A stretch of DNA of 47,325 nucleotides from Candidatus Nomurabacteria bacterium RIFCSPHIGHO2_01_FULL_40_20 (lineage in GTDB: Bacteria; Patescibacteriota; Minisyncoccia; Phycocordibacterales; UBA9973): positions 4,152 through 51,476 of the forward strand of contig MFTO01000011.1 in assembly GCA_001786835.1 (NCBI GenBank), given 5' to 3'. The translations under genes were made by a program, and so were the position numbers. The notes below the pieces were generated by a model. That model ran no database searches. It saw only the letters and a program-made list of their open reading frames with translations, and was not told the origin of the DNA. This document shows, piece by piece, positions 4,033 through 46,500 of the stretch (its first letter is position 1; every line of letters starts with the position of its first letter).

Positions 4033-4309
4033 TCATAAATTTATACGAAAAGGGCTCGGCGTATTTTTCTAAAATACTTCGTTCATATAAGTCGAGTTTG
4101 TTGTAGGCGAGTATAAAATTTTTAATGACGCTCCATTCTTCCCTGCCAGCCGGTTTAATATCTCTCGAAGATAGAATATTTTCCATAACACCCAAAGCTC
4201 TCTTTTGAGCATTTTGGCTTGCTTCTATTTTTCCAGAATCCAAAAAAGAAAACATTCGTCCAATCTCTGGATATAGATTCGCCATATAAAATAAAGAATT
4301 CTTTTCCAT
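4004..4309 (-). CDS. Hypothetical protein, 101 aa
   Basis: ORF overlapping the start of the downstream paralog by 29 nt. Confidence 0.5.
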   Translation of the reverse strand: MEKNSLFYMANLYPEIGRMFSFLDSGKIEASQNAQKRALGVMENILSSRDIKPAGREEWSVIKNFILAYNKLDLYERSILEKYAEPFSYKFMNVYASPTRK

Positions 4310-4318
4310 ATTTTCTTG

Positions 4319-4675
4319 TTATTTTAAGTCAATAAATTTATAAATTATTTCTGTAGCTTTTTTTACTATTTCTTCGTCATTAATACCACGAGATTTATTA
4401 CCTAAATTGGGTTTAATATTTACCATAGAGTCAAATTCTAAAACACCATCAGGATTTTCTTCAAAACGAATGTTGAAACCCCAAACATTTTCAAATTTTG
4501 ACCCAGATTTTGTGAGAAGTTCAGAATCTTCTATGTGATAGTCCCCTCCGAGCACAACCCGACCATCCACGATATCCACCGCGCCTTTTATCATTGTTCC
4601 ATACCAAAACTCCGCTAACTTTTTCACTTCTTCCATACTTATTTTATTTTCCAAAATTTTTATTTCCATAATCAT
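4319..4675 (-). CDS. DUF5674-like protein
   Basis: 118 aa, ILENKISMEEVKKLAEFWYGTMIKGAVDI... pattern. Confidence 0.7.
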   Translation of the reverse strand: MIMEIKILENKISMEEVKKLAEFWYGTMIKGAVDIVDGRVVLGGDYHIEDSELLTKSGSKFENVWGFNIRFEENPDGVLEFDSMVNIKPNLGNKSRGINDEEIVKKATEIIYKFIDLK

Positions 4676-5304
4676 TATTTTCTATCTGTGAATTCATATA
4701 AATTTACCCGCGCTGGGCGGATAACTCGTTCGCCCAGTTTATAGCCTTTTTGGATTACGGTTGCAACTTTATGGTCATCTTCTTTTTTGTCAGTTTGCAC
4801 TGTCTCGATAGACTCATGTATACTTGGATCGAAATCCTCTCCAACATTTCCTATTTCTTTCACTCCATACTCTTCAAAAATAGAATCCATTTGCGCATGA
4901 ATATACTCCACCCCCTTGCGCCAACCTTTGTCCACTTTCTCCCAGGTCTCGCGATTGGCAAAAGCGAGATTAAAACTGTCCATTACAGTCAAAAATCGCG
5001 TAAGTATCCGCTCGCGCATGCTCTCGGAGAGTATGGTCTTCCGACTCTCCTCATCTTTTTTATAATTAGCAAAATCCGCTCGCTCTTTCTGCCAGCCAGT
5101 TAGGTATTCTTCTTTTTCTTTTTTGACCTGTTTTAAATCCGCGCGAAGTTTTTTGAGAGTTTTCTTTAAATCCTCTTCGCCGTCAGCATTATATTCAAAT
5201 TCAACTATGTCATCCTCTTCTGTAGGATTTTCTTCTTTAGTTTTCCCGACCCCTGTCGGGATCCCGACTTCGGTCGGGACTTCATTGTCTTCTTGCATAG
5301 CCAT
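4675..5304 (-). CDS. grpE: Nucleotide exchange factor GrpE
   Basis: Coiled-coil then LTRFLTVMDSFNLAF...GVEYIHAQMDSIFEEYGVKEI...GYKLGERVIRPARVNL; terminus overlaps the next gene. Confidence 0.92.
   Translation of the reverse strand: MAMQEDNEVPTEVGIPTGVGKTKEENPTEEDDIVEFEYNADGEEDLKKTLKKLRADLKQVKKEKEEYLTGWQKERADFANYKKDEESRKTILSESMRERILTRFLTVMDSFNLAFANRETWEKVDKGWRKGVEYIHAQMDSIFEEYGVKEIGNVGEDFDPSIHESIETVQTDKKEDDHKVATVIQKGYKLGERVIRPARVNLYEFTDRK
5245..5280. repeat. Tandem GTCGGGA hairpins inside the grpE N-terminal coding region
   Basis: CCCGACCCCTGTCGGG followed by TCCCGACTTCGGTCGGGA. Confidence 0.7.
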
Positions 5305-5318
5305 ATCTTAGCACAAAA

Positions 5319-5420
5319 ATAAAAAAACGAAAATTGAAAAAATTTAAGCGTCGTGGGTCCCCTGTCTTTTTGTCTCCGAGGACGAAGGCGCAAGAATTTT
5401 TATAATTTTCGTTTTTTTAT
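5319..5420. repeat. Palindromic element, family 5, between rpsI and grpE
   Basis: 17-bp perfect arms ATAAAAAAACGAAAATT/AATTTTCGTTTTTTTAT around a core GCGTCGTGGGT..CCTGTC.TTTTTGTCTCCGAGG.CGAAGGCGC shared with mnmA. Confidence 0.8.
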
Positions 5421-5827
5421 CGTTTTGACCACTGCGGAGCCTTTCTAGCTTTCTTGAGTCCGAATTTTCGGCGCTCTTTGGCTCGAGGGTCTCGTTTTAA
5501 GTAGCCTAGAGTTTTGAGTTTACTGCGTAATTCCCCGTCTGACTTTATTAAAGCGCGAGCCACACCGTGACGCACGGCTTCTGATTGTGAGTGCATTCCT
5601 CCACCCATGACTTTTACTTCTATGCTCCATTTTGACGCAATTTGCCCTTTGACGACTGGGTCATTTATCAAGCGACGTTCATCTTCAGTTTTGAAGTACT
5701 CTTTCGCATCGATGCCATTTACCACAAAAGAAGCTTTGGAAGCAGGAGTAATCCGCACTCGAGCGGTAGAAGTTTTTCTTCGTCCCAATCCTTCAAAATA
5801 TTTTTTCTTGTCTTTTTTTTCTGTCAT
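5417..5827 (-). CDS. rpsI: 30S ribosomal protein S9
   Basis: GRRKTSTARVRI ... KKARKAPQWSKR C-terminus. Confidence 0.97.
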   Translation of the reverse strand: MTEKKDKKKYFEGLGRRKTSTARVRITPASKASFVVNGIDAKEYFKTEDERRLINDPVVKGQIASKWSIEVKVMGGGMHSQSEAVRHGVARALIKSDGELRSKLKTLGYLKRDPRAKERRKFGLKKARKAPQWSKR

Positions 5828-13955: not shown

Positions 13956-14459
13956 TTAATTATCTTCTCCGTTTTGTTTTTTATATAAATTAGATTTTTT
14001 TAGTCCTGCTTCCACAAACCAAAGCGCTACAAAAACAAAAAGAGTCAGAATAGTCGCAATCACAGCTAGGGAATAAAGTCCAAAACCAACTGCAACTCCG
14101 ATCCCAGCGGCCACCCACAAACCTCCGGCGGTAGTGAGTCCAACCGGACGATTGCCTTGAAACATGATAGCTCCAGCACCCAAGAAACCGATGCCAACAA
14201 TTATCTGGGACGCAATTCGGGAAGGATCAAAATTAGAAAACGCTCCATACTCCTCTGCCACAAGCTCAGAGATAGCCACAAAAAGCGCTGCGCCCATTGA
14301 CACTAAAGCATAAGTGCGGATGCCTGCTGTCTTGTGCGCCCACACCCGCTCTATACCCAAAACCACGCCTAAGCCCAGCGCCACAACTAGTTTAAAAATA
14401 ATATCGCTATTTTGTGTTAAAAATTGTGTCATAGAAGTATTATACAACGATACCTCCAC
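13956..14459 (-). CDS. MgtC/SapB family membrane protein
   Basis: VVLGIERVWAHKTAGIRTYALVSMGAALF...GIGFLGAGAIM...GLTTAGGLWVAAGIG. Confidence 0.9.
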   Translation of the reverse strand: MEVSLYNTSMTQFLTQNSDIIFKLVVALGLGVVLGIERVWAHKTAGIRTYALVSMGAALFVAISELVAEEYGAFSNFDPSRIASQIIVGIGFLGAGAIMFQGNRPVGLTTAGGLWVAAGIGVAVGFGLYSLAVIATILTLFVFVALWFVEAGLKKSNLYKKQNGEDN

Positions 14460-15600
14460 CTAAAACAACATCTTTATCATAAAGGACAATAGACTGCCCG
14501 GAAGCGACTAAAACCGATTTTTCAAAAAATACTTTTGCGGAAGACGGTCTTCCGCAGATTACTTGGCAAGATAAAAACTCGCCATGATAGCGAATTTGCG
14601 CAGTATAACCTTTTCCTTCTTTTGGCAAACCCCCAATCCAATTCACATTTTTTATCTGTAAATAAAAATTTGAAAGATTTTTAGCGTCGTGGGTTCCCTG
14701 TCCTTTTTTGTCTCCGAGGGCGAAGGCGCCAAAATCTTTTAAATTTTTATTTTGCGATACATACAAAATATTTTTCTTGATATCTTTACCAATCACATAA
14801 TACGGTTTATCGTTCGGAGTTTTTTTTGTGATAGTAAAACCACGTCGTTCCCCTAAAGTAGAAAATACTACCCCCATATGATGCCCAACAATTTCTTTTG
14901 TTTCAGTAAGTAAAACTTTTCCTTTTTTTTCTTTAATATAGTGTTTCAAAAATTCTTTCAAATCCACTTCACCCAAGAAACAAATCCCTTGGCTATCTTT
15001 TTTCTCTGCTACTGGCAGTTTGTATTTCTTAGCCAAAACGCGAACATCTCTTTTTTTTAAATGCCCTATTGGGAACAAAATTTTGGAGAGTTGTTTTTGA
15101 TTTAAAGTCCAAAGAAAATAACTCTGGTCTTTGGCAGGGTCAAGTCCAGATTTTAGATTAAAGATTTTAGATTTGAGTTTTTTGTTTTTTTGCTTAACTT
15201 TAATCTCTAATCTTTCATCTATTCTCGCGTAGTGCCCAGTCGCCACATAGTCTGCGCCCATAGAAAGCGCTTTTTTAAGAAATGCGCCAAACTTCACTTC
15301 TTTATTGCACATCACATCCGGATTCGGCGTCCGACCAGCTTTGTATTCCGCAATCATATAATCCGCCACCTCTTTTTTGTAAACTTTTTCAAAATCAAAT
15401 GTTAAAAATGGAATGTTCAGATGCGTCGCGACACGCATAGCGTCTAACCGCTCTTCTTCTTCATTACACGGCAAAAAATCCGGATGCCAGGTTCGCATAA
15501 AAACCCCGACTACTTCAAAACCTTGCTTCTTGAGCAAGGTTGCGCTGACAGCAGAGTCTACCCCACCAGAGAGCCCTATAAAAACAATTTTTTTCTTCAT
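14440..15600 (-). CDS. mnmA: tRNA 2-thiouridine synthase MnmA
   Basis: GLSGGVDSAVSATLLKKQGFEVVGVFMRTW; DPAKDQSYFLW; carries an in-frame palindromic insertion. Confidence 0.95.
   Translation of the reverse strand: MKKKIVFIGLSGGVDSAVSATLLKKQGFEVVGVFMRTWHPDFLPCNEEEERLDAMRVATHLNIPFLTFDFEKVYKKEVADYMIAEYKAGRTPNPDVMCNKEVKFGAFLKKALSMGADYVATGHYARIDERLEIKVKQKNKKLKSKIFNLKSGLDPAKDQSYFLWTLNQKQLSKILFPIGHLKKRDVRVLAKKYKLPVAEKKDSQGICFLGEVDLKEFLKHYIKEKKGKVLLTETKEIVGHHMGVVFSTLGERRGFTITKKTPNDKPYYVIGKDIKKNILYVSQNKNLKDFGAFALGDKKGQGTHDAKNLSNFYLQIKNVNWIGGLPKEGKGYTAQIRYHGEFLSCQVICGRPSSAKVFFEKSVLVASGQSIVLYDKDVVLGGGIVV
14660..14752. repeat. Palindromic element, family 5, in-frame inside mnmA
   Basis: 22-nt arms AAATAAAAATTTGAAAGATTTT/AAAATCTTTTAAATTTTTATTT (1 mismatch); core shared with 5346-5392. 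Confidence 0.85.
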
Positions 15601-24504: not shown

Positions 24505-25068
24505 TTATGGGTTGGGTGGAGGTGGAGGTGGAGGTGGAGAAGTGTCGGTATCTGTATTTGGGTCCGGGTTCGGCGGAGGAATAGTTTCGGGCTTGGCCAA
24601 TTCAACAATAGTAAAATCTTTTTCTTTTTCCACTGTTATCTTGGAAACTTTCTGTTCGCCTAAAATACTTTTTACAACATATACTTCCCCTTCTTTCGGT
24701 TCTTCAATTACGGAGGCTATGACGACTTTGTTATCACCTAAAAATAATCCGGTCCCTAAAATTTTATCTTCGCTCCCGTCGGCATTTGCTCCTTTCAAAA
24801 ATAAAGTGACCACGAGCGGTTTTATGGCTTTCAAATCTTCCAACAACTTTTTCTGTTCAGCGGATAATTCTTGAGTCTTGATAATTGTCTCTCCGGGCAC
24901 AATTTTCTCCACTGTCTCTCGCACTATCTGGGTCACCGGAATGGTGACAGACTCGGGGGCTTGTTCCATCAAAGTCACCGTGGTTATGCCGGTGGCAATA
25001 GAAATAACGAAAGAAAGCAGTATCGCCAAAAGTATCAGCTGTGATTTGTTTAAATCCTTTAGGTCCAT
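24505..25068 (-). CDS. Membrane-anchored protein with C-terminal Pro/Asn/Asp-rich tail
   Basis: 187 aa; N-terminal TM helix; tail [24 protein letters not shown]. Confidence 0.6.
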
Positions 25069-25148
25069 CCCGTACGAAATCCTACTATTATTTTTTCTAG
25101 TAAGACTTATTTTACCTCATAAGTGAACCCCGTAATTTCGTACGGGAT
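25067..25148 (-). repeat. Family 1 TIR element overlapping the start codon of the 187-aa gene
   Basis: Perfect 14-bp TIR ATCCCGTACGAAAT/ATTTCGTACGGGAT. Confidence 0.9.
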
Positions 25149-25722: not shown

Positions 25723-27153
25723 CTAATAATACCACTTTCTGAGTTTGGACAAAATGCTTTCCATAACTTTGACCGTGTGGTCAATATCTCTCTTTTCAGT
25801 GTCTCTTCCGAGCGAAAATCGCAAGCTGGTTAGATTTTCTTTGCGCAATGCCCCGATCACGTGCGACGGCTTTTTGTCACCTGATTTGCAAGCGCTTTTT
25901 TCGGAAATGTAAATCCCACGGGCGGAGAGCTCGAGCACCAGCAGGTCGCTTGGAATTTTAGCAATTGTGATATTCACATTGTTTGGTAGTCTGTCTTCCT
26001 TATCGCCATTTAAAACTATTCTATAATTCTGCAGAATTAGAGAATGCTCAAGTAAGTGCAAAAAATAATCACGCAGTTTTGTTAAACGTTTTGTTTCGCT
26101 CTCTTTCATACTCTCTGTGATTTGGAGCGCCTCCGCGAGCCCCACTATAGCAGGCAAATTCTCTGTCCCCGAGCGCATTCCAAACTCTTGCTCTCCGCCA
26201 TACACTATATCTCCTATCGGTGTTCCTTTTCTTATGTATAGCGCCCCCACTCCTTTCGGCCCATAAATTTTCGCGCCATTGAAAGACATCAAATCCACAC
26301 CCAGCTTTTGCACATCTATCGGCAAATAATTCATCGCTTGCGTAGCGTCGGTGTGAAAAAAAGGCAAAAGTGGTAATTTAGAGGCTTGGGAGAGCGACGG
26401 CTCGAGCACGAGGAATTTTTCAGCAGAAAAATATCCGTACTCTAAATTACCACTTTTGCCTTTTCTATATTGCCTTATCTCCTTCGCAATCTCCCTTATC
26501 GGCTGAATCGTGCCGATTTCGTTATTGGCATACATTACCGAAACCAAAACAGTATTTTTCTTTATCGCTTTTTTAATTTTTTTAGGGTCTACTATTCCAT
26601 TCGGTTCAACTGGAATGTAGCTAACCTCTGCACGTTTAGTTTTTTCTAAATGCTTGCAAACTTCCAGCACGGAGGCATGTTCTATGTTCGTCGTAATTAT
26701 GTGTGGAGCAAGCAAGCGATTTTTTAGTGTCTGGTTGAGACCGCTCTCCTTAGAAGATAATGCGCGGGCGACCCGAAGACCGAAAAAATCGCTTGCTTGC
26801 ATAGCACAGATAACTCCAAGTACGCCCAGATTATTGGATTCCGTAGCTCCAGAAGTAAAAATTATCTCTCTTTTTTGCGCTTTTAAAATTTCCGCCACAC
26901 GCTCACGCGCGTCCTCTAAAATTTTTTTATTTTGCACACCCAGTTCATGTATTGCGCCGGTATTGGCAAAATGCACACTGGAGACTTTAGCTATAATCTC
27001 TAAAACTCGCGCATCAATCGGAGTCGCCGAAGCATTGTCTAGGTATACCCCGTTAGTAGATTTTGGTAATACTCGCTTTGCGAGCGCACTTTGTGCCTTA
27101 CCAAAACTCACTACAGGGTATATTATTTTCTTTTTTCCGTTTGATTTAGACAT
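25723..27153 (-). CDS. Cysteine desulfurase (NifS/IscS-like) with three palindrome-derived segments
   Basis: YLDNASATPID; TSGATESNNLG; HTDATQAMNYLPIDV; MSFNGAKIYGPKGVGALY; RSGTENLPAIVG; start moved to MSKSNGKKK. Confidence 0.9.
   Translation of the reverse strand: MSKSNGKKKIIYPVVSFGKAQSALAKRVLPKSTNGVYLDNASATPIDARVLEIIAKVSSVHFANTGAIHELGVQNKKILEDARERVAEILKAQKREIIFTSGATESNNLGVLGVICAMQASDFFGLRVARALSSKESGLNQTLKNRLLAPHIITTNIEHASVLEVCKHLEKTKRAEVSYIPVEPNGIVDPKKIKKAIKKNTVLVSVMYANNEIGTIQPIREIAKEIRQYRKGKSGNLEYGYFSAEKFLVLEPSLSQASKLPLLPFFHTDATQAMNYLPIDVQKLGVDLMSFNGAKIYGPKGVGALYIRKGTPIGDIVYGGEQEFGMRSGTENLPAIVGLAEALQITESMKESETKRLTKLRDYFLHLLEHSLILQNYRIVLNGDKEDRLPNNVNITIAKIPSDLLVLELSARGIYISEKSACKSGDKKPSHVIGALRKENLTSLRFSLGRDTEKRDIDHTVKVMESILSKLRKWYY
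26359..26464. repeat. Palindromic element, family 4, in-frame in the cysteine desulfurase
   Basis: Perfect 25-bp arms AAAAGGCAAAAGTGGTAATTTAGAG/CTCTAAATTACCACTTTTGCCTTTT; internal ATTTTTCAGCAGAAAAAT. Confidence 0.92.
26707..26800. repeat. Palindromic element in-frame in the cysteine desulfurase
   Basis: Perfect 18-bp arms GCAAGCAAGCGATTTTTT/AAAAAATCGCTTGCTTGC. Confidence 0.92.
27048..27118. repeat. Palindromic element, family 3, in the N-terminal coding region of the cysteine desulfurase
   Basis: CCCGTTAGTAGATTTTGGTAATAC...TTACCAAAACTCACTACAGGG; resembles 419-492. Confidence 0.8.
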
Positions 27154-27181
27154 AAAAGTAGTATATATTGAAAAGACATGG

Positions 27182-27262
27182 ATCCCGTACGAAATTACGA
27201 GCTCCATTTACAACATAACATAATTCTGTCTCAAAAAATAATGACGGGATTTCGTACGGGAT
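27182..27262 (+). repeat. Family 1 TIR element overlapping the start codon of the DUF4446-like gene
   Basis: Perfect 14-bp TIR ATCCCGTACGAAAT/ATTTCGTACGGGAT; the terminal AT plus G forms the ATG. Confidence 0.9.
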
Positions 27263-42068: not shown

Positions 42069-42180
42069 AACGAATGAAATGAATATAAAAATCATCACCC
42101 TGTTAAATGTCCTTCGGACAATTTTTGCTTCAGAAAAATTATTTAACAGGGTTAGGAAAATCATATTCGTTTCACTCATT
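42069..42180 (-). repeat. Palindromic element, family 2 (CCCTGTTAAAT...ATTTAACAGGG), upstream of the solute-binding protein
   Basis: Nested inverted repeat; core and TTTTTATATTCATTTCATTC(A/G)TTAAAAATCA arm shared with 46379-46500. Confidence 0.88.
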
Positions 42181-46378: not shown

Positions 46379-46500
46379 AATGAGCGTAGCGAATATATTT
46401 TAACAACCCTGTTAAATGCCCTTCAGGCAATTTTTGCTTTTGCAAAAATTATTTAACAGGGTAAAGATTTTTATATTCATTTCATTCATTAAAAATCATT
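46379..46500 (+). repeat. Palindromic element, family 2, upstream of the S1-like gene
   Basis: CCCTGTTAAATGCCCTTCAGGCAATTTTTGC...AAAATTATTTAACAGGGT and an outer arm shared with 42069-42180. Confidence 0.88.

Follow-up and report, generated by a model that had tools for sequence, protein, structure and literature searches.

A hairpin in a Candidatus Nomurabacteria cysteine desulfurase gene is probably a copy of a mobile palindromic family with a conserved core and target-specific arms

Selfish palindromes inside working proteins have so far been exemplified mainly by the Rickettsia palindromic elements (RPEs; Ogata et al., 2000, 2002, as cited in PMC10969869 and PMC6649704). In the accounts given by these citing papers, RPEs are short palindromic repeats of several families that occupy, in a reduced genome, intergenic positions as well as in-frame positions within unrelated housekeeping genes, and their host genes are presumed functional; the elements described here resemble them in all these respects. 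The GTAG/CGTC-tagged REPs (PMC3733652) likewise include palindromes in coding sequences, many of them in replication and repair genes, as is the case here for polA, ligA and recJ. However, these REPs measure 20–40 bp, have a tagged end and are often associated with a RAYT transposase, whereas the present elements are about 100 nt long, their arms are long and variable, and a link to a transposase is not clear. Quasi-palindromes and template-switch hairpins (PMC8794818, PMC8604942, PMC7202029) resemble our elements, as interpreted below, in that a flank is copied in inverted form, the arms are perfect and are homogenised, and spacers are inverted, in coding DNA as well, but they lack the dispersed, repeated core that lies at the centre here. 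Finally, the coding palindromes of Nematomorpha mitochondria (PMC6649704) also lie in translated genes, as long and perfect inverted repeats whose arms evolve in concert; conserved native residues are encoded in both arms, and their description includes no mobile core. A literature search on palindromes in Patescibacteria, the CPR and Nomurabacteria, with many subscription papers and all preprints outside its coverage, returned no relevant report, and intragenic mobile palindromes have apparently gone unreported in Patescibacteria.

The DNA analyzed here (the window; 47,325 nt) comprises positions 4152–51476 of contig C11 of the Candidatus Nomurabacteria draft genome G000 (0.55 Mb, 78% complete). 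Its cysteine desulfurase gene (nifS) was assigned by a match of the product to Pfam Aminotran_5 (E 7e-64) and by NCBIfam matches with E-values down to 2e-108, which, as the match falls into three stretches, all stay under the curated cut-offs. Comparison with relatives suggests that the true start is the Met of MSKS. The initial annotation had described two in-frame palindromic insertions in this gene, the one studied here with perfect 18-bp arms around a GC-rich core, and both proved to be real. The arms of this hairpin, which we assign to a family termed E2, read GCAAGCAAGCGATTTTTT and AAAAAATCGCTTGCTTGC, are 100% complementary over 18 nt and lie 57 nt apart; the core has a G+C content of 58% by direct count (33/57), and only the previously given start, 26707, was off by one. 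The core carries the motifs GGTCYTCGG (26773–26781) and CCAGAC (within 26726–26734). The second insertion, of the E1 family, has perfect arms at 26359–26383 and 26440–26464. With arms of at least 16 nt, the window contains four perfect inverted repeats, two of them in nifS, while 100 first-order Markov sequences contained none; two have arms of at least 18 nt, for which the analytical expectation in the window is 1.6e-4. The coordinates of the elements and their hosts are given in Table 1.

Table 1. Palindromic elements and host genes in the window.
Feature	Position	Strand	Remarks
E2, 3'-side arm (gene direction)	26708..26725	-	Encodes KNRLLA; from inverted-repeat detection and unfilled alleles
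E2, core with variable inner stem-loop	26726..26782	-	Motifs common to 22 aligned copies from many genes
E2, 5'-side arm (gene direction)	26783..26800	-	Encodes QASDF; compared with unfilled alleles
E1 element in the same nifS gene	26359..26464	-	Conserved core flanked by 25-bp perfect arms; codes for GKSGNLEYGYFSAEKFLVLEPSLSQASKLPLLP
Host gene, NifS/IscS-type cysteine desulfurase	25723..27207 (ORF)	-	494 aa; likely start near 27153; contains E1 and E2 in frame
E7 element (third family)	14660..14752	-	In frame in mnmA
E7 host gene, mnmA (tRNA 2-thiouridylase)	14440..15600	-	386 aa
E7 element, other copy	5319..5420	+	Between ORFs 4675-5304 and 5417-5827; arms differ from the mnmA copy

The initial annotation took an occurrence in unrelated proteins as the sign of a mobile palindrome, and confinement to one position of cysteine desulfurase orthologs as the sign against it. 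E2 was found in unrelated genes, which supports the first of these readings and shows that the core is mobile. The second E2 copy of G000 lies inside ligA, where it is read in the same frame as in nifS (SLGPRVARTVYLKKSGLNQTLENSS) and separates CPVC from CTNKKC, the two CxxC halves of a C4 zinc finger; its core is 83% identical to the nifS copy and its arms are different. Other species of the genus carry E2 in mnmA and, with host names that rest on a reading of the translations, in polA, recJ, leuS, a CCA/poly(A) polymerase gene, an rRNA-methylase-like gene and others, as well as at two other positions in nifS and at the position seen in the window. Among the 80 species genomes sampled from the genus, covariance models detected E2 in 61, with at most 20 copies per genome, and E1 in 76, although weak E1 matches may be generic hairpins. 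When an E2-subtype pattern was run against all GTDB species genomes, the named matches were Candidatus Nomurabacteria and one probable chance match in Corallococcus. Within the order, 105 of the 297 genomes and 66 of the 165 genera sampled carried the E1 core, whose identity reached 96% across families. Several palindrome families coexist in one genome, since E1 (six copies, most of them intergenic), E2 and E7 all occur in G000. No match above the gathering score was obtained in Rfam, and carriage by phages was rejected, as 2.9 million viral contigs contained no exact match to the E1 or E2 core pattern. Together with the allele comparisons below, these results make it probable that the hairpin in the window is a copy of a mobile palindromic family that inserts in genes and between them, with a conserved hairpin-forming core and target-specific arms, and whose coding copies are kept where they fall in frame and stop-free in a surface loop.

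The elements are present at a given site in some species and absent in others, and the same loops have been occupied repeatedly. In a set of 69 nifS alleles, site A (the loop of the window's E2) and site B (the loop of E1) contain, depending on the species, E1 or E2 in forward or reversed orientation, E3 (a further palindrome family, CCTCACCC...GGAGAGGG), simple perfect hairpins, or nothing. Unfilled alleles read xxxxF-(L)PHI, for example VVYAAIEQDF-LPHI, without the segment of the E2 3'-side arm. In situ inversion of the core as the origin of reversed E1 copies in nifS was not supported (CTGYTG in forward copies, TTGYTA in reversed ones). The mnmA site is likewise unfilled or holds different palindrome families among species; where the window has E7, the genomes G006, G024 and G072 have E1. 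In mnmA of G024 (L155) and of G072 (L188), a single gene carries E2 and E1 together in frame, about 165 codons apart. At the junction of an mreC-like gene and tgt, G057 is empty, with the stop codon next to the ATG, while E1 (G056) or other hairpins (G074 and G058) occupy the same point. No clear target-site duplication was seen at this junction, the single clean empty site compared. In tsaD, E1 in G056 is replaced by another hairpin in G057. The flanks of a G057 E1 site lie on separate contigs in G074 (L193 on C23, L207 on C74), which suggests that the palindromes break assemblies.

While the cores are 80–96% conserved, the arms of 15–27 bp are unrelated between copies and each pair is strictly complementary. 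All 21 E1 arm pairs showed double-sided changes, and their covariation score was reached by none of 500 shuffles and was far above that of slid controls. In G000, the cores of the six E1 copies are 85–92% identical to the nifS copy and their arms are unrelated; therefore, the arms were not simply brought in with the core. Unfilled alleles served as the reference for tracing the source of the arms. The 5'-side flank of the mnmA insertions, VSQ[DN]KN, agrees with unfilled alleles, whereas the 3'-side flank disagrees with them and mirrors the 5' flank. At offset 8 from NW, F was found in 14/14 filled and 0/12 unfilled alleles (mean BLOSUM –2.5 versus 0.12), as would be expected if the QDKN codons had been copied in inverted form. 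In nifS, an earlier native-arm test had given mixed results, confounded by arms that reach the conserved PHI and PFF codons, and was replaced by a revised one. The reconstruction with a native left arm then scored higher in 12 of 18 alleles, including 5/5 at the window's E2 site, counts that are not independent events as alleles of one site may share descent; at site B, E1 alleles mostly gave ties or ambiguous outcomes. For the window's own E2 the margin is small (38.2 versus 37.6), and its 5'-side arm is probably native nifS sequence and its 3'-side arm an inverted copy.

One native and one inverted arm, as in mnmA and mostly in nifS, points to replication template switching, a process known to form perfect hairpins, homogenise their arms and invert spacers (PMC8794818, PMC8604942). 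We infer that the arms are made at the target and not carried by the element. Tentatively, these palindromes may be order-wide mobile elements of Patescibacteria that carry only a small hairpin core, the long stem being built at each site from host sequence by snap-back template switching. In this scheme, the most economical one, the core would be inserted at the target, followed or accompanied by a template switch in which the nascent strand, ending in the core hairpin, would fold back on itself (snap-back copying, as in quasi-palindrome correction). The polymerase would then copy about 15–27 nt of the native 5'-side flank, and the return of the strand to its template would leave the inverted copy on the 3' side. 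The corresponding pattern is present at mnmA and at nifS site A, mixed at site B, and contradicted at the mreC-like/tgt junction, where most of the arm sequence of G056 is absent from the empty allele of G057. Another source is therefore needed there; the arms could have come from a donor or from a simple hairpin that preceded the element.

Such earlier hairpins are central to a different explanation, in which the element specifically targets the loop of a hairpin or quasi-palindrome that already exists, and the arms belonged to the target beforehand. Consistent with this, the position of a G057 E1 copy corresponds to a terminator hairpin in G058, simple hairpins without a core occur at the same nifS and mnmA sites, and the arms of one copy (L141) include AGCAAGGAC/GTCCTTGCT, which forms a core-less palindrome at another locus (L054). 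However, a strong hairpin is lacking at the site in most of the unfilled alleles of nifS and mnmA, and the 3' flank in mnmA has moved away from the native residues instead of keeping them, so that we regard this origin of the arms as unlikely.

Alternatively, the arms could be borne by the element and diverge rapidly while remaining paired, through compensatory change or arm homogenisation, with the core under selection. Orthologous insertions in polA (L017, L021 and L023) indeed have diverged arms that are still complementary. Some E2 copies in different genes also share additional inner arm sequence, CCTGATGCTTTT...AAAAGCATACAGG; thus, part of the arm can travel. Nevertheless, the contrast within G000 between closely similar E1 cores and wholly unrelated arms makes this explanation quite improbable.

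It is more doubtful still that the elements are conventional MITEs or REPs moved by a Y1 transposase (RAYT/IS200 type), whose terminal inverted repeats would be the arms. Y1 transposases (PF01797) were detected in 54 of the 80 genomes of the genus, and E1 counts were slightly higher in their presence (mean 8.8 versus 5.7, p 0.04). Yet E2 counts did not correlate with Y1 (rho 0.06), and among the 25 genomes without a PF01797 match, which include the 78% complete G000, 24 contain E1 and 19 contain E2. Conserved terminal inverted repeats, as expected of MITEs, were not found either, the arms being unrelated between copies. With the correlation weak or absent, the Y1 transposase is unlikely to be an obligatory mobiliser. 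Y1 transposase genes reach at most 13 copies per genome of 0.5–1.0 Mb in the genus, yet G000 has no match.

The consequences of insertion for the host proteins were assessed in a sample of 95 distinct copies that is biased toward strong matches and in which coding status was judged by ORF length. Inside long ORFs were 29 of 39 E2 copies and 17 of 56 E1 copies, and all six reading frames of the elements were in use. Therefore, no encoded peptide is conserved, and a peptide function of the inserts was rejected as improbable. In the predicted NifS protein, where an insert stretch reads GLRVARALSSKESGLNQTL, much of the AlphaFold fold scores >90, and the inserts appear as low-confidence segments at about residues 140–166 and 253–277, between helix 121–138 and strand 169–173 and between helix 237–251 and strand 283–287. 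As no peptide is conserved and the inserts lie in loops, tolerance is favoured, and the E1 and E2 peptides are probably tolerated rather than functional. The earlier suggestion of selected-for or tolerated insertions thus stands in its second part, with six frames in use and unfilled alleles common, and the first part fits less well. A selected function of the hairpins in nifS, as RNA or protein features such as a regulatory structure or a new domain, is highly improbable: palindromes do recur throughout the genus in the same loops of nifS, and stem covariation is strong, but family, orientation and frame vary at one site, many alleles are unfilled, and the same elements occur between genes and in unrelated proteins.

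In a comparison of descriptions, our elements agree with the RPEs of the cited accounts in being repeated palindromes that are read in frame within a number of unrelated protein genes. Because they have neither a conserved peptide nor conserved arms, we set them apart as a variant beside the RPEs rather than as members. They come from a different phylum and, in contrast to RPEs as portrayed there, only the core is shared, the arms are target-specific, and both orientations and six frames are used. Several families, spread over an order and located in nifS, mnmA, ligA, polA and leuS of tiny Patescibacteria genomes, would mark in-frame palindrome insertion as a recurrent process and not one peculiar to Rickettsia. 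The combination of conserved core and target-specific arms separates the moving part from the part copied locally, and the genus-wide allelic series of nifS and mnmA can serve as a natural experiment on how template switching acts within coding DNA. In protein comparisons, loops of this kind are open to being mistaken for family-specific insertions.

The window contains further palindromes. Two inverted copies with ATCCCGTACGAAAT arms and a loop of 53–54 nt (25067–25148 and 27182–27262; 79% identical) bracket the nifS region and are the only ones in the genome; one of them provides a spurious N-terminal extension of the nifS ORF. At 42097–42152 and 46406–46462 lie two copies of a separate family, whose arms, ACCCTGTTAAAT...ATTTAACAGGGT, are conserved, and a spacerless perfect 19-bp palindrome, GAGCTCTAGAGTTAACTCT/AGAGTTAACTCTAGAGCTC, is located at positions 15–52.
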